Assembly (NCBI GenBank): GCA_025928645.1
Contig: JAICJD010000018.1
Coordinates: forward strand, 1-33,153
Source of the DNA: Gemmatimonadales bacterium
Lineage (GTDB): Bacteria; Gemmatimonadota; Gemmatimonadetes; Gemmatimonadales; GWC2-71-9
Length of the DNA: 33,153 nt
Direction of reading: 5' to 3'
Part shown: piece by piece, positions 3,329 through 19,110 of the stretch
Layout: the number at the start of each line of letters is the position of its first letter
How positions within the stretch are numbered: position 1 is the first letter of the stretch
Position numbers and translations under genes: made by a program
The notes under the pieces: model-generated
What the model was told of the DNA's origin: nothing
What the model saw: the letters and a program-made list of their open reading frames with translations, nothing else
Databases searched by the model: none

Positions 3329-4494
3329 CCGGGCGCAGCGGTCCTCCCGCGAGCGTGCCCCTCGCCGCGCTCACCTCCTATTTTCTGCGGCTCGGCACGT
3401 TCGGGTTCGGGGGGCCGATCGCCCTGACCGCGGCCATGCATCGCGACCTGGTTCAGGAGCGCCGATGGGTGACGGCGCAGGAGTACAGCGAGGGACTGGC
3501 ACTGGCGCAGCTCGCGCCCGGGCCGCTGGCCGCGCAGCTGGCCGTCTATCTCGGCTGGGCGCGACGAGGCGTGCTCGGCGCGACCCTGGCGGGGGTGGCG
3601 TTCGTCGGACCGTCGTTTCTCATGGTCACGGTGCTCTCGGTGTTCTATCTCCGGTTCGGCGAGCTCGGGTGGATTCAGGGCGCCTTTTACGGGATCGGCG
3701 CGGCGGTCATCGCCATCGTGGCCCGCGGCGCCGGCAAGCTGCTCGGCTCCAGCGTGGGCCGCGATCCCCTGCTCCGGGGCGTCGTGCTGGTGAACGCCCT
3801 CGTCGTCGCCTGGACGGAGGCGGAAATCCTGTGGGTGTTCGCGCTGAGCGGCGGGGTGGTGCTGGCCTGGCGAGTGGTGCGCGAGCGCGCCCCGGCCCGG
3901 GGGGCCACGGTTGCGTCCGTAGTCCCGCTATGGCTGGTGACGGGCCTGCACGGCCCCGCCTCCGATGCGATGCTGGCGCGCATCCTGGGCTACTTCGCCA
4001 AGGCCGCGGTGGTGGTGTTCGGCAGCGGGCTGGCCGTGGTGCCGTTCCTGCACGGGGGCGTGGTCGGCGACTACGCGTGGCTGAGCGAGCGCCAGTTTCT
4101 CGACGCAGTCGCGGTCTCGATGATCACGCCGGGACCCGTGGTCATCACGGTGGCGTTCATCGGCTACCTCGTCGCCGGACCGCTCGGCGGCCTGCTCGCC
4201 GCGTTCGGCATGTTCCTGCCGACCTACCTGGCCGTGGTCCTGGCCGCCCCGTCGTTTCATCGGCTGACCGCCAACCGCCACCTCAAGGCGGCGGTGGACG
4301 GGGTGACCGCCGCCGCGACCGGCGCCATCGCGGGGGCGGTCGTGGTGCTCGGACGTCGGGCGATCACCGACGCCGAGACGGGCGCGATCGCGCTGGCCAC
4401 CCTGCTGGTGCTCCTCCGCGTGCGGCGGGTACCGGAGCCCCTGGTGATCATCGCCGCGGGCGCTGTCGGCGTCGCGCTGACGCAGCTCGGCTGA
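3304..4494 (+). CDS. chrA: Chromate efflux transporter, long-chain two-domain ChrA
   Basis: Inner-membrane transporter of the CHR family that exports chromate. The 396-residue length and two homologous hydrophobic halves fit the long-chain class. The first half starts with FLRLGTFGFGGPIALTAAMH near residue 27 and contains LAQLAPGPLAAQLAVYLG. The second starts with YFAKAAVVVFGSGLAVVPFL and contains SMITPGPVVITVAFIGYL; the paired PGP motifs are family hallmarks. Several transmembrane helices are evident in each half. I used ATG 3304, which overlaps the preceding gene by 25 nt. GTG 3325, giving a GTGA overlap with that gene's stop, is an equally plausible start and would remove 7 residues. Function is well supported by the adjacent chrB genes. 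Confidence 0.93.
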   Translation: MARTNTAVTGRSGPPASVPLAALTSYFLRLGTFGFGGPIALTAAMHRDLVQERRWVTAQEYSEGLALAQLAPGPLAAQLAVYLGWARRGVLGATLAGVAFVGPSFLMVTVLSVFYLRFGELGWIQGAFYGIGAAVIAIVARGAGKLLGSSVGRDPLLRGVVLVNALVVAWTEAEILWVFALSGGVVLAWRVVRERAPARGATVASVVPLWLVTGLHGPASDAMLARILGYFAKAAVVVFGSGLAVVPFLHGGVVGDYAWLSERQFLDAVAVSMITPGPVVITVAFIGYLVAGPLGGLLAAFGMFLPTYLAVVLAAPSFHRLTANRHLKAAVDGVTAAATGAIAGAVVVLGRRAITDAETGAIALATLLVLLRVRRVPEPLVIIAAGAVGVALTQLG

Positions 4495-4531
4495 CCGGGC
4501 GGAACCGCCGGACGAGGAAAGGACGGCGCGC

Positions 4532-5533
4532 ATGGCACAGGGCACGCTCGTGGTCTCTCGCGGCGAGGTGGCGCGCGCGCTGACCACGCCGGAGTGCATC
4601 GAGGCCGTGGAGCGCGCGTTCCTTCGCCACGGCCGGGGGGAGACCATCCCGCCCGGCGTTCTCGGTACGCACGTCGAGGGCGGCGGCTTTCATGTGAAGT
4701 CGGCCGGCCTCCCGGACGCCATCGGAGGCCGCCCGGTGTTCGCGGCCAAGGTGAACGCCAACTTTCCCGGCAACCCGGACCGAAACGGCCTTGCCACCAT
4801 TCAAGGCGTGATTGCGCTGTTCGATGCCTCGGACGGGCGCCTGCTGGCGCTGCTCGACTCCGGCGAGATCACGAGCCTCCGCACGGCCGCGGCCACCGCC
4901 GTGGCGGCGAGGTATCTGGCGCCGGACGCCGCGCGGGTGACGATCTGCGGCTGCGGGGAGCAGGCCAGATACCAGCTCCGCGCCCTGGCGTGCGTTCGTT
5001 CCCTGGAATCCGTGAGGTCGCTCGACTCGAACGCGGAGCGGTCGCGCCGGTTCGCCGCCGAGATGACGGCAGAGCTGGCGCTCGACGTCGTGGCCATCCG
5101 CGATCCGGCCGAGGCCGCGCGCGAAACCACGATCTGGGTGACCTGCACGCCCGCGCGCCGCTGGCTCCTGGGCCGCGAGCACGTAGCCCCCGGTGCCTTC
5201 GTGGCCGCGGTCGGCGCGGACCACCCCGACAAGCAGGAGATCGAGCCCGAGCTGCTCGCCGCCGGCGCTGTGGTGGCGGATGTCCTCGATCAGTGCGTCG
5301 CCATGGGCGACCTGCACCACGCGATCGACGCGGGCCTCATGGGCCGCGAGCAGGTCCGCGCCGAGCTGGCGGAAGTGGTGGCGGGACACAAGCCCGGCCG
5401 GCTCGACGCCGCCGAGATTGTCGTATTCGACAGCACGGGCACGGCGCTCGAGGACGTGGCCGCCGCGGCGGTGGTCTATGAGAAGGCGATGGTGAAGGGC
5501 GTCGGCCTCAGCGTTCGGCTGGGCGCGGCGTGA
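4532..5533 (+). CDS. Ornithine cyclodeaminase / mu-crystallin family NAD(P)-dependent dehydrogenase
   Basis: 333-residue cytoplasmic enzyme of the OCD/mu-crystallin family, whose members act on amino or imino acids (ornithine cyclodeaminase, alanine dehydrogenase, ketimine reductase). Conserved features are AAKVNANFPGN with the substrate-binding Lys (K73), SGEITSLRTAAATAVAARYL at 110-129, the dinucleotide loop GCGEQA starting at G140, GADHPDKQEIEPELL with the catalytic-type Asp, and STGTALEDVAAAAVVYEKA near the end. A strong ribosome site, GAGGAAAGG at 4514-4522, precedes ATG 4532. It lies 37 nt after chrA and overlaps the M20 peptidase by GTGA. The exact substrate cannot be read from sequence, and its link with chromate resistance is unexplained. 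Confidence 0.88.
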   Translation: MAQGTLVVSRGEVARALTTPECIEAVERAFLRHGRGETIPPGVLGTHVEGGGFHVKSAGLPDAIGGRPVFAAKVNANFPGNPDRNGLATIQGVIALFDASDGRLLALLDSGEITSLRTAAATAVAARYLAPDAARVTICGCGEQARYQLRALACVRSLESVRSLDSNAERSRRFAAEMTAELALDVVAIRDPAEAARETTIWVTCTPARRWLLGREHVAPGAFVAAVGADHPDKQEIEPELLAAGAVVADVLDQCVAMGDLHHAIDAGLMGREQVRAELAEVVAGHKPGRLDAAEIVVFDSTGTALEDVAAAAVVYEKAMVKGVGLSVRLGAA

Positions 5534-6957
5534 GGGCGACTCCAGCCCTGGGCCCGGAGGCAGCGGCCCCGGCCGGGGACGGGCCGCTCGCCTGGCTGGC
5601 CCGCCACGAGACGGTCGTCCTGGCCCGACTGAACGAGTTCCTCGCCATTCCCAGCGTGAGCACCAGGGCCGAGCACCGGGCGGACGTGGCGAGGTGTGCC
5701 GCGTGGCTCGCGGCGGAGCTCCGGCGGATCGGGCTCACGGCCGAGTGCCTCGCGACGCCCGGGCATCCGGTCGTGCTGGCCGAGTGGCGCGGCGCTCCGC
5801 GCGATGTGCCCACGGTGCTGATCTACGGGCACTACGACGTCCAGCCGCCGGAGCCGCTCGGGCCGTGGGCGTCGCCGCCGTTCACGGGCACGGTGCGGGA
5901 CGGCCGGCTGTATGCCCGTGGCGCGGCCGACGACAAGGGCCAGCTCTGGGTCCACGTCGCCGCACTCGAGGCGTGTCTGGCGGCGCGCGGCGCGCTGCCG
6001 GTCAATGTCGTGATGCTGGTCGAGGGAGAGGAGGAGGTCGGGAGCCCGAGCCTGGCCGGCGTGGTCGCGGCCGAACGCGCGCGGCTCGCGTGCGACTACA
6101 TCGTCATCTCGGACACGGTGATGCTCTCGCCCGAGGTACCGAACATTCTCGGGTCCATGCGCGGGCTGGCGTACTTCGAGCTCACGGCACGCTCGGCGGC
6201 GACCGATCTCCACTCGGGCCAGTACGGGGGCGTGGTGGCGAACGCGGCGGCCGGCCTGGCTCGCGCCGTGGCCTCGCTGGTGGACCCTGGCGGGCGGGTC
6301 GCGATCCCGGGCTTCTACGATGACGTCCGGGAGCCATCGCCGGCACGGCGCGAGGAGCTGGCCCGATTCCCGTTCGAGGAGGAACGCTTCGCCTCCGACA
6401 GCGGGATCGACGTCCTGATCGGGGAGGAGGGCTATACGGCACTGGAGCGGCTCTGGCTCCGGCCGACCTGCGAGGTGAACGGCATCTTCGGCGGGTACAT
6501 TGGCGAAGGGGCCAAGACGGTGATTCCGTCGGCCGCGGCGGCCAAGGTGAGCTTTCGCCTGGTGCCGGACCAAACCCCCGAGAGAGTCGAGCGCCTGCTC
6601 CTGACGCATCTCGCGAGCCTCGCGCTGCCCGGGGTGCGGATCGACCTCCGCCGACTCAGCGGCAGTCTGCCCTGGCGGACGCGCGGCAACACGGCCGGCC
6701 TGGCAGCCGCCCGACGCGCGCTTCGGACCGCATTCGCCGGCGACCCGGTCGGCGGCGGGACCGGCGGCACCATCCCGATCGTCCCGGAGCTCGCGCGGTC
6801 CTTCGACGCCGAGATTCTCCTCATCGGGTTCGGGCTGCCGGGCGAGAACGCCCACGCGCCGAACGAATGGCTCGATCTCGAGACCTTCCGGCGCGGGGCT
6901 CGGGCGGTGGTTGCGCTGTACGAGGAGCTGGGGTCCCGTACCGGACGGGAATCGTGA
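5530..6957 (+). CDS. M20-family dipeptidase/carboxypeptidase (ArgE/DapE/carnosinase type)
   Basis: 475-residue di-zinc peptidase. Metal-site motifs are visible in order: YGHYDVQP with H101 and D103, ARGAADDKG with the bridging Asp at 134, EGEEEVGS with the general-base Glu at about 167-168, DLHSGQYGG opening the dimerisation lid domain, and the final HAPNEW histidine. This order and length fit the dipeptidase/carnosinase branch of M20. No signal peptide is visible, so it is probably cytoplasmic. The GTG start at 5530 overlaps the preceding stop as GTGA, and its own end overlaps the next gene in the same way, so the trio is translationally coupled. Likely substrate is a dipeptide or N-acyl amino acid, possibly feeding the upstream OCD-type enzyme; that link is inference. 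Confidence 0.92.
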   Translation: MRATPALGPEAAAPAGDGPLAWLARHETVVLARLNEFLAIPSVSTRAEHRADVARCAAWLAAELRRIGLTAECLATPGHPVVLAEWRGAPRDVPTVLIYGHYDVQPPEPLGPWASPPFTGTVRDGRLYARGAADDKGQLWVHVAALEACLAARGALPVNVVMLVEGEEEVGSPSLAGVVAAERARLACDYIVISDTVMLSPEVPNILGSMRGLAYFELTARSAATDLHSGQYGGVVANAAAGLARAVASLVDPGGRVAIPGFYDDVREPSPARREELARFPFEEERFASDSGIDVLIGEEGYTALERLWLRPTCEVNGIFGGYIGEGAKTVIPSAAAAKVSFRLVPDQTPERVERLLLTHLASLALPGVRIDLRRLSGSLPWRTRGNTAGLAAARRALRTAFAGDPVGGGTGGTIPIVPELARSFDAEILLIGFGLPGENAHAPNEWLDLETFRRGARAVVALYEELGSRTGRES

Positions 6958-8054
6958 CAGCCGCCCACGGCTTCGCCCGCCCTCCAAGGATCGGCCGGGC
7001 GCTGCTCACGGCCGTGCTCCTTGCCGCGTGCGCCCCCCTGGCCAAGCCTTCCTGCGCGGCGTGTTCTGGTCGGGTCGCCGCGCTGGTACACGCCTGGGCT
7101 GCCGCGGCGGCGCCGGCCGGCGTCGAGACCGCTTCGCCGCTCGCGAAATGGCGCATCGTCGCCGACGTTCCCCTTCCCGGTCCGCCCGCGCGCTTCGACT
7201 ATCAGAGTTTCGACACGACGACGGGGTGGCTCTGGATCGCCCATATGGGAGCAGGCGAGGTCCTCGCCTTCGACGTGAGGGCTCGCCGGGTGACCGCCCG
7301 GGTGCCGAATATGCCGGGGGTGACGGGCATACGCGTCGTGCCGAGCCTGCGGCGGGTATTCGCGTCGCTCAGCGGAGACCATGCGGTCGCGGTGCTCGAC
7401 AGCCGTAACGGGCAGGTCACCGCGCGAGTGCCCGGGGGCCGGTTTCCCGACGGGGTGGCGTACGCGCCTCAGGCTCACAAGCTGTACGTGTCGGACGAGC
7501 GTGGCGGACAGGAGCTCGTCATCGATGTGCCCTCGTCCTCGGCCCGCCGGGCCATCCGACTCGGCGGCGAGGCGGGGAACACCCAATACGACGCCGTGAC
7601 GGCTCGGGTGTGGGTGGCGGTGCAGACGCGCGAAGAGCTTGCCGCGATCGATCCGCTCGCCGACTCGGTGGTCGCGCGCGTGCCCACGCCGGGGATCCGG
7701 CGTCCGCACGGGATTCTCGTGGACGCCGACCACCGTTTCATTTACGTGGCGGGCGAGGAGAACGCCCGCCTAGGCATCCTCGACCTGCGCACGATGCGGA
7801 TCGTTCGAACGTATGCGGTGGGAGGTGAGCCGGACGTGCTGGCCATGGATCCAGGGCGGCGGCGCCTGTTCGTCGCGGCCGAATCAGGCGTGATCTCGGC
7901 GTTCGTCGCGCGTGGCGATTCGCTCGTGCCTTTGCCGCGGTACGAGGTCCCTCATGGTCATTCCGTCGCGGTGGACCCGACCACCCACCTGGTGTACGTG
8001 CCGCTCGAGAATGTGAAGGGGAAGCCCGTGCTCCGGATTCTCCGCCTGGAATAA
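6954..8054 (+). CDS. YncE-like beta-propeller lipoprotein
   Basis: 366 residues from GTG 6954, which overlaps the M20 stop as GTGA. The N-terminus has an export signal with a lipobox LAAC, lipidated Cys at 26, so it is probably anchored facing the periplasm. The rest is a series of about 40-residue beta-blades typical of YncE/SMP-30-like propellers, with recurring phrases such as GWLWIAHMGAGEVLAFDVRA, RVFASLSGDHAVAVLDSRNG, KLYVSDERGG, RFIYVAGEENARLGILDLRT and HLVYVPLENVKG. Such folds serve as binding or scaffolding domains; no catalytic residues are evident. It is the last gene of the operon beginning with chrB. Its role there is unknown. Confidence 0.8.
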   Translation: MTAAHGFARPPRIGRALLTAVLLAACAPLAKPSCAACSGRVAALVHAWAAAAAPAGVETASPLAKWRIVADVPLPGPPARFDYQSFDTTTGWLWIAHMGAGEVLAFDVRARRVTARVPNMPGVTGIRVVPSLRRVFASLSGDHAVAVLDSRNGQVTARVPGGRFPDGVAYAPQAHKLYVSDERGGQELVIDVPSSSARRAIRLGGEAGNTQYDAVTARVWVAVQTREELAAIDPLADSVVARVPTPGIRRPHGILVDADHRFIYVAGEENARLGILDLRTMRIVRTYAVGGEPDVLAMDPGRRRLFVAAESGVISAFVARGDSLVPLPRYEVPHGHSVAVDPTTHLVYVPLENVKGKPVLRILRLE

Positions 8055-8888: not shown

Positions 8889-9524
8889 TCAGAATAGCGC
8901 GAGCTGAGCGATGGGCTCGAAGCTGCGACGGTGATGGGCGGTGGGGCCCCGCGCCCGGAGCCCGGCGTGATGCTCCTCGGTGCCGTAGCCCATGTTGGTC
9001 TCCCACCCATACCCGGGGTGCCGCGCCGCGAGGCGCTGCATCAGCCGGTCGCGGACGGTCTTGGCCAGCACGGCGGCAGCGGCGATGGACTGGCAGCGCG
9101 CGTCGCCGTCCACCAGCGCGTCGTGGGGATAGCCGACCTCGGGGAGCGGCAGGCCGTCGATCAGGATACGATAGGGCCGGCCGGTGAGCCGGTCGGTTCG
9201 AAGCAGTGCGGTGATGGCGCGGTGCATGGCGAGCGCGGAGGCCACGCGGATGTTGAGCCGGTCGATCTCGTGCGACGAGGCGGCGCCCACGGCGAAGCCG
9301 AGCGCGCGCGACCGGACCCGCTCGGCGAGCACCCGGCGGACGCGCGCCGGAAGGATTTTGCTGTCCCGGAGGCCGCGGACCGCACGGCACATGGGAGGAA
9401 ACACGACGGCCGCGGCGACCACCGGTCCTGCCAGTGGGCCGCGGCCCGCTTCGTCGACGCCCACGAGGAGCGCCTCCTCGGCCCAGGCCACCCGTTCTCG
9501 TTGGAGCGAGGGGCGGAGGGGCAT
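8889..9524 (-). CDS. rnhB: Ribonuclease HII
   Basis: 211-residue RNase HII, which cuts the RNA strand of RNA-DNA hybrids and removes misincorporated ribonucleotides. The N-terminal signature VGVDEAGRGPLAGPVVAAAV carries catalytic D24 and E25. Further motifs are RDSKILPARVR, the DGLPLP segment with an acidic residue, CQSIAAAAVLAKTVRDRLM and the family-typical GYGWETNMGYGTEEHHAGL. It starts 4 nt after the rplS stop; rplS-rnhB adjacency is a common bacterial order and supports the call. Confidence 0.96.
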   Translation of the reverse strand: MPLRPSLQRERVAWAEEALLVGVDEAGRGPLAGPVVAAAVVFPPMCRAVRGLRDSKILPARVRRVLAERVRSRALGFAVGAASSHEIDRLNIRVASALAMHRAITALLRTDRLTGRPYRILIDGLPLPEVGYPHDALVDGDARCQSIAAAAVLAKTVRDRLMQRLAARHPGYGWETNMGYGTEEHHAGLRARGPTAHHRRSFEPIAQLALF

Positions 9525-10064: not shown

Positions 10065-10793
10065 TCACGATCCCTCGTCCCCCGCGTACCGCTCCCACAG
10101 ATCCGGCCGACGCTCCCGCGTCAGCCGCTCCGCCTCCGCCCGCCGCCACGCCTCGATCCTCGCGTGATCGCCCGAGCGCAGGACCTCGGGCACCGCGAGC
10201 CCGCGATACTCCGGCGGCCGGGTATAGCTGGGCGGGCTCAGCAGCCCCTCGTAGTGCGAATCGCCGCTCGCGCTCTCGTGGTCGCCCAGCGCGCCCGGGA
10301 GGAGCCGCACCACCGCGTCGAGCACGCAGATGGCCGCCGGCTCGCCGCCCGAGAGCACGAAGTCGCCGACCGACAGCTCCTCGGCGCCCAGCCCATCGGC
10401 CACGCGCTGATCCACGTCCTTGTAGTGGCCGCAGAGCAGCGTGAGCCGGCGGCGAATCGAGAACCGCACCGCGTCGTCGTGCCCGAACCGGCGCCCTCGC
10501 GCCGAGAGCAGCACCACCGCGTCCAGGGGCCCCAGGCTCTCGACCGCCTCGAAGAACGGCTCGGGCTTGAGCACCATCCCCGCGCCGCCGCCGTAGGCGT
10601 AGTCGTCCACCGTGGCGTGCCGGTCGTGGGTGAAGGCGCGGAGCTGTACCAGATTGAACGTCACCAGCCCGGCCGCCGCCGCCCGCCCCGGGATGCTCGC
10701 CGCGGTAAACGGGGCGATGACCTCGGGGAACAGGGTGACGACGTCGATGGTCAGCGGACGGTCGGAAGGTCGGACGGTCGGACGGTCGGACAA
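10065..10793 (-). CDS. trmD: tRNA (guanine-37-N1)-methyltransferase
   Basis: TrmD methylates G37 next to the tRNA anticodon using S-adenosylmethionine and prevents frameshifting. The knotted SPOUT core is clear: [16 protein letters not shown] near the start, [53 protein letters not shown] and [16 protein letters not shown]. The C-terminal helix region ends [15 protein letters not shown]. The start is odd: no ATG or GTG lies before the conserved LTIDVV. The longest frame begins at TTG 10793 and adds 13 residues encoded by an octamer repeat tract; CTG at 10754 would begin directly at the conserved part. It lies between rimM and rplS, the usual order. Confidence 0.95.
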
Positions 10794-10864
10794 TATGCCG
10801 TTCCCTCACTCGGGATGACCGAACCATTCCCGTCGCCCCTGACCGTCCGACCGTCTGACCGTCC
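10756..10864. repeat. Inverted pair of GGACGGTC tandem tracts between rimM and trmD
   Basis: 10756-10791 carries about four and a half octamers of the GGACGGTC type; one unit has an A for C. 10841-10864 carries three units in the opposite orientation (GACCGTCC and a variant). The two tracts could pair as a long imperfect stem around a roughly 50-nt loop. The left tract overlaps the first codons of trmD and the right tract abuts the rimM stop. Similar GGACGG-cored tracts occur at 14972-15005, 17786-17821 and about 28301-28355. Confidence 0.75.
10798..10820. repeat. REP-like element fragment
   Basis: The sequence CCCTCACTCGGGATGACC matches the right arm of the REP-like element (CCCTCGCTCCGCTCGGGATGAC) with an internal deletion of a few bases. 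It sits in the loop between the paired GGACGGTC tracts, so this rimM-trmD gap has gathered both repeat families. Confidence 0.5.
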
Positions 10865-14585: not shown

Positions 14586-14668
14586 GGCACTACCACCGAG
14601 AAGGGACGCGTTCGACGGACGCGCCAAAGGTGGCGCGGCGCCGTCAAGCCGATATCAAGTGCCGTGAC

Positions 14669-14945
14669 ATGGAGGACGGGCGGCTCGTCACCCGCGCGGG
14701 GCCCGGCGGCCCCTATCGGCTCGGCCCCGGCAACAGCGTCGCCTCCGCAGCCCGCCAGGAGCTCGAGGCGCTGACCCGGGCCACCGGCGAGCCCTCGAGC
14801 GTCGAGATCCTCGCCGGCGACGAGACCCTGATCCTCGACGAGGTCCAGGGCGGGCATTCTGATCGGTACGTCGCCGAGCGTCGGCACCAGCAGGCCGGCG
14901 CACGAGGCGGCCCGCCGGCTCGACTCGGCCACCGGGGTGTGGTTC
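14669..14945 (+). pseudogene. Truncated, frameshifted IclR-family regulator remnant
   Basis: From about ATG 14669 the frame reads MEDGRLVTRAGPGGPYRLGP, matching the end of an IclR winged helix (LxxxGxVxR then YRLGP). SVASAARQELEALTRATGEP and VEILAGDETLILDEVQGG follow, the start of the IclR effector domain. At about 14855 the match moves to the +2 frame (ILIGTSPSVGTSRPAHEAAR), resembling the GxRxPLHATA segment, and it stops where a pyrimidine tract begins near 14950. The first half of the DNA-binding domain and most of the effector domain are missing. The gene cannot make a working regulator. The 456-nt gap between the oxidase and the DUF445 gene otherwise holds only the tract. Confidence 0.7.
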
Positions 14946-14971
14946 GGCGGCGGCGACCTCCTCCTCTCCCT

Positions 14972-15005
14972 CCTTTCCGTCCTTTCCGTCCTTCCGTCTT
15001 CTCCG
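14972..15005. repeat. CCTTTCCGT tandem tract
   Basis: Two exact 9-nt units CCTTTCCGT (14972-14989) are followed by degenerate units CCTTCCGT and CTTCTCCG, in a wider pyrimidine-rich stretch from about 14958. The unit is the reverse complement, with one mismatch, of the GGACGGAGA units at 17786-17821. The two tracts thus bracket the DUF445/ATP-grasp gene pair in opposite orientation. Confidence 0.7.
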
Positions 15006-15041
15006 ACTAAGTTTCCACGCTCCCTCGCGCCCAGGAACCCG

Positions 15042-16316
15042 ATGGTCACCGTCGCCGCGATCCCGCAGGTCACCGACGCGGAGCACAAGCAGCGCCAGCT
15101 CGACCTGATGAAGCGGCGGGCGACCGGGCTGCTGGTGCTCATGGGCGTCGTGTTCGCGGTGGCCTGGACGCTGGAGCCGGCGCATCCGTGGCTGGGATAT
15201 GTCCGGGCCACCGCCGAGGCGGGCATGGTGGGCGGCGTGGCCGACTGGTTCGCCATTACCGCGCTGTTCCGCCGGCCGCTCAACCTGCCGATCCCGCACA
15301 CCGCCATCATTCCCCAGCGGAAGGACCGCATCGGCCGGAGCCTGGGGAACTTCGTCCAGAACAACTTCCTCTCGCCCGAGGTGCTCGGCGCCAAGCTCAA
15401 GGCGGCGGAGCTGAGCCGCCGGGCCGCCGACTGGGTGCGGCAGCCGGAGCACGCGCGCACGCTGGTGCGGCAGGGCGCGGGCGCGCTCCGGAGCGCCAGC
15501 GCGGTCGTGCGCGACGAGGACGTTCACGCCATGCTCGAGCGCAGCGTGATCGAGCCGCTCAAGCGGCGGCCCATCGCCCCCGTGCTGGCCGACGGGCTCG
15601 CCCTGCTCACCGTCAACGACCGGCATCAGCAGCTGCTCGACCGCCTGGTGCAGGGCCTCGCGCACCTCGTGGCGCAGAACGAACCGATGATTCGCGAGCG
15701 CATCCGCGCGGAGAGCCCGTGGTGGGTGCCCGAGTTCGTGGACGACCGGCTGCACGAGCGCGTGGTCGAGGGCATCGAGCGCACGCTGTCCGAGGTGGGG
15801 ACCGATCCCGGCCATCCGCTGCGCCGCCAGCTCGACGATCTGCTGGTGACCTGGATCGAGCAGCTGCGCCAGTCGCCCGAGGCGATCGCCCGCGCGGAGC
15901 AGATCAAGCAGCAGGTGCTCGATCACCCCACCAGCGAGCAGCTCACCGAGTCGCTCTGGCGCGAGGTCAAGCAGGTGCTGGACCGGCAGGTGGCCGCGGC
16001 GGAGCACGGCGCGCCGGGCGGCCTCGAGCGCGGTCTCATCGCCCTGGCGGAGGCCACCCTCGAGGACGCGGCCCTGCTCGACAAGCTCGACGAGTGGCTG
16101 ATCGGGGCGGTACTCCACGCGGTGGACCAGCACCGCCACGAGGTGGGGCAGCTCATCGCGCACACCGTGAGCGTGTGGGATCCGGACGAAACCTCGCGGC
16201 GGATCGAGCTGCAGGTGGGCCGCGACCTGCAGTTCATCCGCATCAACGGCACGCTGGTGGGCGGACTCGTGGGCCTGGTGCTGTACGGCCTGACCCAGCT
16301 CCTGGGCCACGGGTAG
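15042..16316 (+). CDS. DUF445 family membrane protein
   Basis: 424 residues from ATG 15042, preceded by a weak ribosome site AGGAA. DUF445 proteins (YjiN-like) are membrane-anchored and of unknown function. Residues about 29-46 (GLLVLMGVVFAVAWTLE) form the first membrane segment. AEAGMVGGVADWFAITALFR and PIPHTAIIPQRKDRIGRSLG follow, the family's most conserved stretch, then a long amphipathic helical region with coiled-coil character, and a C-terminal membrane segment VGGLVGLVLYGLTQLL. The topology suggests both ends in the membrane with a large soluble helical domain between. It is followed 6 nt later by the ATP-grasp gene, so the products probably work together. Confidence 0.9.
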   Translation: MVTVAAIPQVTDAEHKQRQLDLMKRRATGLLVLMGVVFAVAWTLEPAHPWLGYVRATAEAGMVGGVADWFAITALFRRPLNLPIPHTAIIPQRKDRIGRSLGNFVQNNFLSPEVLGAKLKAAELSRRAADWVRQPEHARTLVRQGAGALRSASAVVRDEDVHAMLERSVIEPLKRRPIAPVLADGLALLTVNDRHQQLLDRLVQGLAHLVAQNEPMIRERIRAESPWWVPEFVDDRLHERVVEGIERTLSEVGTDPGHPLRRQLDDLLVTWIEQLRQSPEAIARAEQIKQQVLDHPTSEQLTESLWREVKQVLDRQVAAAEHGAPGGLERGLIALAEATLEDAALLDKLDEWLIGAVLHAVDQHRHEVGQLIAHTVSVWDPDETSRRIELQVGRDLQFIRINGTLVGGLVGLVLYGLTQLLGHG

Positions 16317-16322
16317 CCGCCC

Positions 16323-17831
16323 GTGACCGACGTCGCGCCCGAGCCGGCTCCCGTGCCGCCGCCCGGCCCCGCCGAGCGGGTCGGGCTGCGCGGCGCCGAG
16401 CTGGCGGCGCGGGTACGGCAGGCGCTGTACCGGACGCCCACGCGCGCCCTCGCGGCGGCCTTCGAGCGGATGGTGGACGGCGGCACCGCGCGCCACCTGG
16501 ACTACTTCATGGACGGCGTGGTGCACCGGATCCGGGTCTTTCCCTGCCCCCTCACCCTGCTTCCGGAGCAGGCGGCGTATCTCCACCGCGTGGTCCGCAC
16601 CCTCCACGACGCGCTGGTCCGGCTGCCCGAGCTCTACCTCGCCGACCCCGAGGTCCGCGGCATTCTCCGGCTGGAGCCGGAAGAGGACGCGTGGCTGCGG
16701 GACTGCTGGACGCCCGCCGTTCGCGCGCGGCCTGCCGTGTTCGACCGGCTGGACGCGCTGGTGGACTACACGAGCCCGGTCTGGAAGGACACCCTCAAAT
16801 TCGTCGAGCCGAATCTCACCGGGGTCGGCGGATTGCACCTCGTGCCGTCGGTCGAAGAGATCCTGAGCGAGACGGTGGTGCCCCTGCTCGAGGCGGCGGA
16901 CGTCGGCCTCCGGCTCGCCCGGCTGGCCGACGCGCGCGAGCTGCTCCACCGGGAGCTGGCCGACCAGCTCGAGGCGATCGGCCGGCCGGGCGGCACCGTG
17001 TGCTTCGTGGAGCCCAAGTACGAGCTGGAGGGAATCGACGAGCAGCGCCGCCTGGTGGAGTACCTCGGCGCGCGCCACGGGATGCGCGCGCTCCACGCCG
17101 ATCCGTGCGAGCTCCACATGCACGGCACGGAAGCGTACTGCGGCGACGATCGGGTGGATCTCGTCTACCGCGACTACAGCGTGCTGGACCTGGCTGAGCT
17201 CGAGCGGGATGGCGTGGACGTCACGCCGATGCGCACGCTGTTCCGGGAGAACCGGGTCGTGAGTTCGATCGGCGCGGAGCTGGACCACAAGGCCTGCTGG
17301 GAAATCCTGACCGATCCGGATATCGCCGGGCGCTACTTCGACGAGGCGTCGCGCCGGTGCTTCCAGCGGCACGTGCTCTGGACTCGGGTGCTGTCCGACC
17401 GGGTCACCTCGCTGCCCGCCGGCGAGCGCGGCCCGCTGCTCGAGTACGCGCGCGGGGCCCGCGATACGCTCGTGCTCAAGCCCTCACGCGGCTACGGCGG
17501 CGAGGGCGTCGTCATCGGGCAGACGCTCAGCGACGCGGAGTGGGAGCTCGCGCTCGCGGCCGCGCTGGCGGATCCGGAGCTCTGGGTCGTGCAGACGCTC
17601 GCCTACATCCCGGTGCTCGAGGTGCCGACGCTCGCTCCCGACGGCGCCCTCCGCCCCGAGATGTACTATCACGTGATGGGATACGCCTCGTCGGAGGCGG
17701 GCCTCGCGATCCTCGCCCGGGCCTCGCAGCGGCAGGTGGTGAATGTGGCCCAGCGGGGTGGAATGGCGGGGGTGATGGTGGTGAAGGACGGAGAGGACGG
17801 AGAGGACGGAGAGGACGGAGAGGGCGGATAG
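16323..17831 (+). CDS. Circularly permuted ATP-grasp / glutathionylspermidine-synthase-like protein
   Basis: 502 residues from GTG 16323, 6 nt after the DUF445 stop. The central part resembles permuted ATP-grasp ligases: FVEPNLTGVGGLHLVPS in the place of the EINTNAGG-type substrate motif, CFVEPKYELEGIDEQRRLVE, VDLVYRDYSVLDLAEL, and LKPSRGYGGEGVVIG with the ATP-binding Lys at 386. Such enzymes join a carboxylate to an amine or thiol through an acyl-phosphate. The substrate is unknown. The N-terminal 150 residues match nothing I recognise. The last 16 residues are a low-complexity KDGEDGEDGEDGEGG tail encoded by a GGACGGAGA tandem tract that runs into the terminator hairpin. Confidence 0.72.
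   Translation: MTDVAPEPAPVPPPGPAERVGLRGAELAARVRQALYRTPTRALAAAFERMVDGGTARHLDYFMDGVVHRIRVFPCPLTLLPEQAAYLHRVVRTLHDALVRLPELYLADPEVRGILRLEPEEDAWLRDCWTPAVRARPAVFDRLDALVDYTSPVWKDTLKFVEPNLTGVGGLHLVPSVEEILSETVVPLLEAADVGLRLARLADARELLHRELADQLEAIGRPGGTVCFVEPKYELEGIDEQRRLVEYLGARHGMRALHADPCELHMHGTEAYCGDDRVDLVYRDYSVLDLAELERDGVDVTPMRTLFRENRVVSSIGAELDHKACWEILTDPDIAGRYFDEASRRCFQRHVLWTRVLSDRVTSLPAGERGPLLEYARGARDTLVLKPSRGYGGEGVVIGQTLSDAEWELALAAALADPELWVVQTLAYIPVLEVPTLAPDGALRPEMYYHVMGYASSEAGLAILARASQRQVVNVAQRGGMAGVMVVKDGEDGEDGEDGEGG
17786..17821. repeat. GGACGGAGA tandem tract encoding the ATP-grasp C-terminal tail
   Basis: Four exact 9-nt units occupy 17786-17821 in frame with the upstream gene and encode repeated Glu-Asp-Gly triplets just before its TAG at 17829-17831. 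Further degenerate, inverted units (CTTTCCGTC, CCGTCCTCTCCGTC) follow at 17857-17895 and supply the other side of the terminator stem. Confidence 0.85.
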
Positions 17832-17878
17832 GTGACGGAGAGGCTGACTACCGACCTTTCCGTCACCCCTCCGCCCTC
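17820..17878. terminator. Bidirectional terminator hairpin between convergent genes
   Basis: Arms 17820-17843 and 17855-17878 are reverse complements at 21 of 24 positions around an 11-nt loop. The stem spans the stop codons of the convergent ATP-grasp gene (ends 17831) and metallopeptidase gene (ends 17863). No long T-run follows on either strand, so intrinsic termination may be partial. Confidence 0.7.
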
Positions 17879-19110
17879 GCCGTCCTCTCCGTCACCTTGG
17901 CGCCAGGCAACGAACCCCACCGGTCCCAAGCCGCCGGCGCCAAGGTATATCTCACCGCCGGCCTCCCCGACACCGTGACCGAATCGAACGCCGCTCTATA
18001 GCCGGCGCGGGCGGTACGCCGAAGGGGCGGCCCCGCGGTCCGCACGAAGCGGTCGGCGGAGCGGGCGTCGTCCCATACGATGTACCAGATGAGCGCGGGG
18101 CCCCCGGGCGTATCATAGACCCGGAAGCGGTCGCCGCCCCAGCCGATCGGCACCACGGTCTGCACCTCGTCCGATCCCGCCAGGACGGCCAGCAGCACCC
18201 GGATCTCGTTCTCGCCCAGCACGTCCTCGTAGGCGACCCCGCGCTCGGACGGAAACGCCAGCGCGAGCGGCCGGTCGCCGCGCGCGTAGCGCTCCGGGTG
18301 GAGGATCTGCTCGGTCGAGACCGGCATGCGCGGGCCGTAGGGCAGCGTGTCCTTCGGGCCGGCGGTCTCCCACCAGTACATGAACTGGGCGCCGTCCAGA
18401 TACGGAAAGATCAGCGCCTCGCGCACCACGAGCGGCGCGTGGGCGAACACCGGCATCTGCGATTGCTGCTCGCGGACCTGATCGCGATACATGTCCCAGA
18501 ACTCGGGCGTGGTCGTCACCCGCCGGCCCGGAGCGAGCACCTCGATGGAGGTCAGGGTCGCCTGCCCCTCGAGCACCGACTGGGCGGCGGTGAGCCGGTC
18601 GTTGTTCGCGGTGGCGCCAAGGATCGAGTCGAGCGGGAGGTACTGTCCCTGGAGCGCGTGTACCATCTCGTGCGCGAGGACCAGCCGGAGCTGGTCGTGC
18701 CCGGCCCCGGCCACCCCGAAGAGCATCGCCGAGTCGGGGTCGTAGTAGCCGGCGACCTGCTCCGCGTAGAGATCGAGCAGCAGGCCCCGGAGCTCGAGCG
18801 TGTCGGGAAGGAGGCCGAACAGCCGGTAGGCCGTCTCGAGGCCGCGCATGCGGGCGGGCGGCAGCTCCTGATCGAGCTTGGCGAGCAGATAGCCGCGCAC
18901 CTGGTCCCGGGTCCTGAGCGCGGAACGCGGCGGTGTCCGGAAGGTCAGCCCGGCCGCGCGCTCGACGGGACTGCGCAGGCTGTCCACCAGGCGCTGGAGC
19001 TCCAGCGCCTCGGAGCCGGTCGCGCCGGGACGCTGCCCCCGGCACGCCGCTGCCGTGGCGAGGAGCCCGCCGGCCACGAGCAGCCGGCCAGCGGCCCGGC
19101 GGAGCGTCAT
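17863..19110 (-). CDS. HExxH metallopeptidase-like lipoprotein
   Basis: 415 residues from ATG 19110. The N-terminus GRLLVAGGLLATAAAC looks like a lipoprotein signal with Cys23, although the -3 residue is Ala rather than Leu. A zinc site LVLAHEMVHALQGQ has H147, E148 and H151, and VLEGQAT with E181 about 30 residues later is a good third ligand, as in gluzincin-type peptidases. The segment AEQVAGYYDPDSAMLFGV before it is typical of a poorly studied family of predicted exported proteases. It overlaps the prepilin peptidase stop by ATGA, so the two are coupled. Substrate unknown. Confidence 0.78.
   Translation of the reverse strand: MTLRRAAGRLLVAGGLLATAAACRGQRPGATGSEALELQRLVDSLRSPVERAAGLTFRTPPRSALRTRDQVRGYLLAKLDQELPPARMRGLETAYRLFGLLPDTLELRGLLLDLYAEQVAGYYDPDSAMLFGVAGAGHDQLRLVLAHEMVHALQGQYLPLDSILGATANNDRLTAAQSVLEGQATLTSIEVLAPGRRVTTTPEFWDMYRDQVREQQSQMPVFAHAPLVVREALIFPYLDGAQFMYWWETAGPKDTLPYGPRMPVSTEQILHPERYARGDRPLALAFPSERGVAYEDVLGENEIRVLLAVLAGSDEVQTVVPIGWGGDRFRVYDTPGGPALIWYIVWDDARSADRFVRTAGPPLRRTARAGYRAAFDSVTVSGRPAVRYTLAPAAWDRWGSLPGAKVTERTARAEG

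Follow-up and report, generated by a model that had tools for sequence, protein, structure and literature searches.

Three unrelated parts probably make up the locus described here: a resident gene of the DUF445 family, an inserted paralogue of a circularly permuted ATP-grasp ligase whose native counterpart in a make-and-unmake or trim-and-extend pair would be an M32 carboxypeptidase, and a member of a dispersed family of hairpins. The locus lies in a window of 33,153 nucleotides (the whole stretch of DNA analysed; contig C95 of genome G000, which has 3.9 Mb in 294 contigs). A preliminary description had joined the DUF445 gene and the ligase as a functional pair; that false link is here replaced by a testable one, between the ligase and a metallocarboxypeptidase of family M32, which adjoins the ligase or is fused to it in several genera (eight divergent pairs, one truncated pair and one fusion), the copy in the window excepted. 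What emerges is an uncharacterised family of bacterial peptide ligases with a metallocarboxypeptidase as its conserved, once-fused partner, a combination on which no paper was found.

The ligase gene (16323-17831, forward strand, GTG start) was recognised from the fold of its product and from conserved residues, and the early call of a permuted ATP-grasp enzyme holds good on both counts. Its AlphaFold model (pLDDT 81, pTM 0.83), a check proposed at the outset, places the protein in the glutathione/glutathionylspermidine synthetase superfamily. In a Foldseek search of the PDB the best matches were the eukaryotic-type glutathione and homoglutathione synthetases (1m0w, 2hgs, 3kal; E 1e-13, probability 1.00), likewise circularly permuted ATP-grasp enzymes, and the range from E 1e-13 to 3e-5 took in homoglutathione synthetase, human and yeast glutathione synthetase, Cp1B, the putative glutathionylspermidine synthase 3n6x, E. 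coli YgiC/YjfC and trypanothione synthetase(-amidase); the superfamily is common to the ligase and to the glutathionylspermidine and trypanothione synthetase-amidases, YgiC and YjfC (2vps, 7uk8, 7uk6). ATP-dependent C-N ligation, as in the glutathione and homoglutathione synthetases, is expected of the window enzyme too, but identity to them is 12-16%, loop details differ, the genomic partner is another one, and no glutathione pathway context was seen around the ligase. In the fungal pathway to E-64, the ATP-grasp ligase Cp1B couples trans-epoxysuccinate with an amino acid (PMC12568646). Together with 3n6x, Cp1B (9cjn) is the closest PDB sequence and matches in fold at E 8e-13, but overall sequence similarity is marginal (E 0.11 with the single sequence, 0.1 with the profile), the match to these two (only E ~0.1) arising at the ATP-binding loop, and no trans-epoxysuccinate or adenylating partner genes lie near the ligase. 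The score against PF14403 (CP_ATPgrasp_2) is 22.3 bits, below the curated cut-off of 32. The window ligase is intact, has the fold of this superfamily and belongs to a subfamily of its own, a new one made up of circularly permuted ATP-grasp ligases that have an M32 carboxypeptidase as partner.

Conservation within the subfamily is strong. Alignment A1 comprises nine orthologues including the window protein, the other members being 45-69% identical to it, and has more than 100 invariant columns, all retained in the window protein. The invariant stretches are E162-P163-N164 (16806-16814, forward strand), which we take to be a probable Mg2+-binding E-x-N; Y282-R-D-Y285; D321-x-K323; the ATP-binding loop K386-P-x-R-x-Y-G-G-x-G395 (17478-17507, forward strand), in which K, P, R, Y and the three lettered G following them are invariant; and N474. 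E162, N164, K386, G392, G393, G395 and N474, whose roles are assigned by analogy, are identical in 9/9 ligases down to 45% identity, and the loss of ATP-binding residues that had been considered was seen in none of the nine. A distant sister family (~30% identity) is common in the order, one member scoring 36.8 bits against PF14403. At L193:4185-11299 and L195:3228-8622 members of this sister family are clustered with genes for Peptidase_C26/GATase and GCS2, an esterase-like gene and an unassigned protein, a setting that again suggests the formation of small amides.

When 395 genomes of the phylum were searched with a profile, the close ligase subfamily turned up in 12 genomes of the order. 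In eight of the genomes examined, from several genera, a gene for an M32 (Taq) carboxypeptidase adjoins the ligase divergently (G003, G004, G005, G076, G189, G376, G101, G132), among them 5/5 of the ligase genomes of other genera (the last five), and the starts of the two genes lie ~50-140 bp apart in the six pairs measured. The M32 proteins of G003 (547 bits) and G004 are full-length, the contig of G005 ends inside its M32 gene, and HExxH is retained in every M32 examined. In a Proteobacteria MAG the two are fused in one continuous reading frame of 1014 residues (L055:2183-5227). Full-length M32 occurs in 11 of the ~228 genomes of the order (a hand count from the genome listing), nine of which also carry the ligase subfamily; put the other way, M32 is present in 9/12 genomes with the ligase and 2/216 without it (Fisher p 3e-12, uncorrected for kinship). 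The M32 proteins of the order form one clade in the M32 tree (100/99) and the fusion M32, a long branch, falls outside it, so that the association of ligase and M32 arose at least twice. At G156:C8:20554-21213 a ligase and a divergent M32 stand side by side, both as C-terminal fragments only, as if a single deletion had taken both N-terminal halves together with the shared promoter.

The window ligase is a paralogue unlinked to M32. In the ligase tree it groups with the G002 and G006 copies and the G009-type copy (91/100), a clade of which no member (G000, G002, G006, G009) is adjacent to M32. No M32 was found in G000 at 97% completeness; contig C55 begins with the final part of another ligase copy, of the M32 type, which the contig end cuts, and the absence of M32 may therefore be an assembly gap. 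M32 is present without an adjacent ligase in G002, G260 and G289.

Permuted ATP-grasp ligases fused to a hydrolase that cleaves the ligase product are familiar from the glutathionylspermidine and trypanothione synthetase-amidases, whose hydrolase is a CHAP cysteine amidase. The ligase-M32 fusion likewise unites ligase and hydrolase in a single polypeptide, although the hydrolase there is a zinc carboxypeptidase where the synthetase-amidases have an amidase. Judged from its fold and conserved residues, the window ligase would use ATP to phosphorylate a carboxylate and, through the acyl-phosphate intermediate, would link it to an amino acid or amine, as glutathione synthetase, YgiC and Cp1B do. 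A small peptide or acid would in this way gain a residue at its C-terminus, and the M32 enzyme, being specific for C-termini, would remove a residue, in reversal or in processing. Because M32 is the conserved partner of the family, divergent or fused, a make-and-unmake or trim-and-extend pair is the most likely native role. Between the two forms we prefer making and unmaking on the precedent of the synthetase-amidase fusions; taken by itself it is a tentative model, to which we would give rather less than even weight. The fusion protein offers a single construct for substrate finding.

Somewhat unlikely by comparison is a one-way route in which M32 trims peptides into an acceptor that the ligase then caps, yielding a small peptide product. 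The adjacency and fusion data fit it equally, the sister family sits in a GATase/C26, GCS2, ligase and esterase cluster, and Cp1B and other stand-alone ATP-grasp ligases make small secondary metabolites (PMC12568646), but around the M32-linked loci conservation does not extend to other biosynthetic genes. A common promoter for divergent genes also need not mean a common pathway, and the two enzymes could be linked by chance retention or by such a promoter while serving separate processes, general peptide turnover on the one hand and a separate conjugate on the other. Their separation in G002, G260, G289 and the window clade would suit that explanation, which we nevertheless regard as distinctly unlikely given two independent associations, one of them a fusion, and the strong co-occurrence of the genes.

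The DUF445 gene, by contrast with the ligase, is old at its site. It lies at 15042-16316 on the forward strand and encodes a membrane-anchored protein of 424 aa, correctly named in the preliminary description: the match to PF04286 (369 bits, E 5e-110, above the cut-off) covers positions 1-367 of 368, a full-length family likeness with nothing unusual about it. The family presumably includes E. coli YjiN and B. subtilis YheB. The structure model was poor (pTM 0.35), too low for a fold search. DUF445, looked for in the 61 genomes in which the ligase was also sought, is present in 10/10 same-genus genomes, including G001, G007 and G008, from which the ligase is absent, and a translated comparison of the window genes recovers in congeners the order RNase H, trmD, rpsP/rimM, ffh, DUF445, the 17863 gene, thiD and nucleoside phosphorylase, with kelch/ffh on one side of DUF445 and the convergent 17863-19749 gene on the other. 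The latter, on the reverse strand and weakly similar to an Hvo_1808-type surface protein in its conserved part (17863-19035, start approximate), is the ancestral right-hand neighbour. DUF445 is thus a resident gene in its ancestral position within conserved synteny. A regulator remnant proposed to its left is a weak suggestion at best (possible IclR type, 14688-14900, forward strand; IclR_C, 40 residues, 11.8 bits, E 0.18, below cut-off).

What follows the DUF445 stop varies among congeners. In five (G003, G004, G005, G007, G008) an empty spacer of ~90-250 nt separates it from the 17863 gene; G001 and G006 have a second DUF445-like reading frame where the window has the ligase, and G002 has other sequence. 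DUF445-like genes 3' of DUF445 were seen at L131 (G001), L136 (G006) and L133 (G009), the last matching DUF445 weakly, and at G006:C224:14726-15130 (L136:7730-8200) a DUF445 with an internal deletion joins residues 6-108 to 393-424 in one open frame. Among the loci compared, a ligase stands behind DUF445 in the window genome only, which indicates insertion into conserved synteny: the ligase, a paralogue, is the later arrival in the short spacer behind DUF445. Misassembly at a repeat or a chimeric contig is unlikely; the junction of the two genes is free of repeat, and the ancestral order of DUF445 and then the 17863 gene spans the insertion, the retention of these neighbours on both sides arguing against a chimera. 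Spread of the ligase on plasmids was set aside, with three weak plasmid matches as its only trace.

The proposal of an envelope-associated biosynthetic pair made of DUF445 and the ligase, conceived as a small-peptide or polyamine-conjugate system, fares badly against these data. In its favour are the same-strand arrangement across a 6-nt gap (16317-16322, forward strand) and a consistent ligase start codon. A search of 61 genomes for the ligase, with wider regions around its homologues then examined, placed DUF445 near none of 20 ligase loci other than that of the window, and no ligase lay near any of ~30 DUF445 loci elsewhere, so the survey of neighbours gave no recurrence of a pair that contains one late insertion and one older gene found without it. 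No envelope or polyamine link was found, and we consider the proposal, refuted by the test set for it in the preliminary description, very improbable. The gap, read at first as a sign of co-translation, is real and marks the insertion point; co-transcription in G000 is plausible and the inserted gene is probably transcribed and translated along with DUF445, but the functional coupling to DUF445 falls away. A scan of 14600-18100 detected neither a sigma-70 promoter nor a U-tailed terminator.

The third part consists of tandem tracts of 9-nt units at 14958-15005 and 17785-17843, which do run in opposite orientation, as first described, but of which the right one is not a flank of the gene pair. 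The left tract, a single arm upstream of DUF445 (14958-15005), is an imperfect tandem (CTCCGTCCT)n. The right tract falls inside the ligase gene, where it encodes residues 488-502 (DGEDGEDGEDGEGG), and supplies the left arm of a hairpin with tandem-repeat arms (17785-17893) that folds at -89 kcal/mol, its local inverted arms (17805-17843 and 17855-17893) being 90% matched. The left arm encodes the last 15 ligase residues, before which close orthologues stop; the right arm encodes the last residues of the convergent gene, whose orthologues end a few residues past ...WG.VP/LP. The hairpin has rewritten the C-termini of both convergent genes. A small mobile element made of the DUF445-ligase pair and delimited by its tracts as inverted repeats is scarcely credible and was rejected: opposite tracts do stand on both sides of the pair, but DUF445 is ancestral at the site, the ends of close ligase orthologues in other species are free of such tracts, the right tract forms one half of a local hairpin, and the 9-nt unit recurs at 19 loci of G000, mostly without DUF445 or ligase genes. 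Nor do the tracts specifically bracket the pair; they are a dispersed repeat unrelated to it.

The tracts belong to a dispersed hairpin family whose repeat unit is specific to the lineage. Genome-wide counts come from exact-pattern searches and are lower bounds, many G006 tracts lying at contig ends. The 16-mer GGACGGAGAGGACGGA has 31 copies at 19 loci in G000, mostly in hairpin arms, with none for the reversed control, so that the family of the G000 unit occupies at least 19 loci. An exact search found it in none of eight congeners, and outside G000 it reaches at most one copy per other sample genome (8/395 genomes in all). The unit is GGACGGAGA in G000; G006, G002 and G009 use AACGGCGG (45, 27 and 7 matches, none in G000), and G003 and G007 have others, tandem tracts of other units also occupying the spacer upstream of DUF445 in these two. 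The rimM-trmD spacer carries hairpins in G000, G006, G007 and G003, each of a different unit, and none in G005. Orthologous spacers with tandem-armed hairpins of different 8-10-nt units were likewise seen at window positions 10755-10864 against L136:4624-4730, L135:10780-10810 and L130:11344-11380, and at L096:14274 against L297:3020 and L080:5649 against L281:3023; the units in such spacers are each dispersed in their own genome or lineage. Of the 18 G000 sites compared, two fall in a spacer that has orthologous genes flanking it on either side and that carries a site of a different unit in G006 or G002, where a rough count would expect ~0.26, and one of these hairpins lies directly behind the same tRNA gene (read by eye) in both species.

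As far as genes can be called, the G000 hairpins lie between tandem or convergent genes, which suggests a role at 3' ends, and the dispersed hairpins probably act at the 3' ends of transcripts; at the window hairpin no U-tailed terminator was found. With one in 223 kb of unbiased contigs, tandem-armed hairpins are rare and not a dense genome feature. The turnover of the hairpin unit is the oddest feature at the locus, and raises the question of how dozens of dispersed hairpins switch their repeat unit together. A tentative answer, in our view only a little short of evenly balanced, is that the hairpins keep their places (behind tRNAs and at the 3' ends of genes) and their build (two inverted arms, each of tandem 8-10-nt units) while between congeners the unit is replaced genome-wide in concert, by concerted evolution through inter-locus copying, with selection for the hairpin itself rather than for its sequence.

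Two earlier reports describe intergenic heptamer tandem repeats in Beggiatoaceae (TAACTGA) and in Xanthomonas and Nostoc (PMC4679880, PMC4692102). Like the window hairpins, these arrays are dispersed, intergenic and built of a short unit. Those of the window type differ in being arranged mainly as inverted pairs that fold into strong hairpins, and in having a unit that varies from one congener to another within a given spacer. At two loci of G002 (L303 and L297) the loop of a tandem-armed hairpin contains another hairpin repeat, of a common type (TCATCCCGAGCGGAGCGAGGGATCTTC-like). In another lineage of the order, L193 carries dense heptamer arrays (GGGCTGA, CCCTAGC, GTTGGTA and GGCAGAG/CTCTGCC) at 4091-5156, 6850-6958 and 9369-9439, some of them as inverted pairs.
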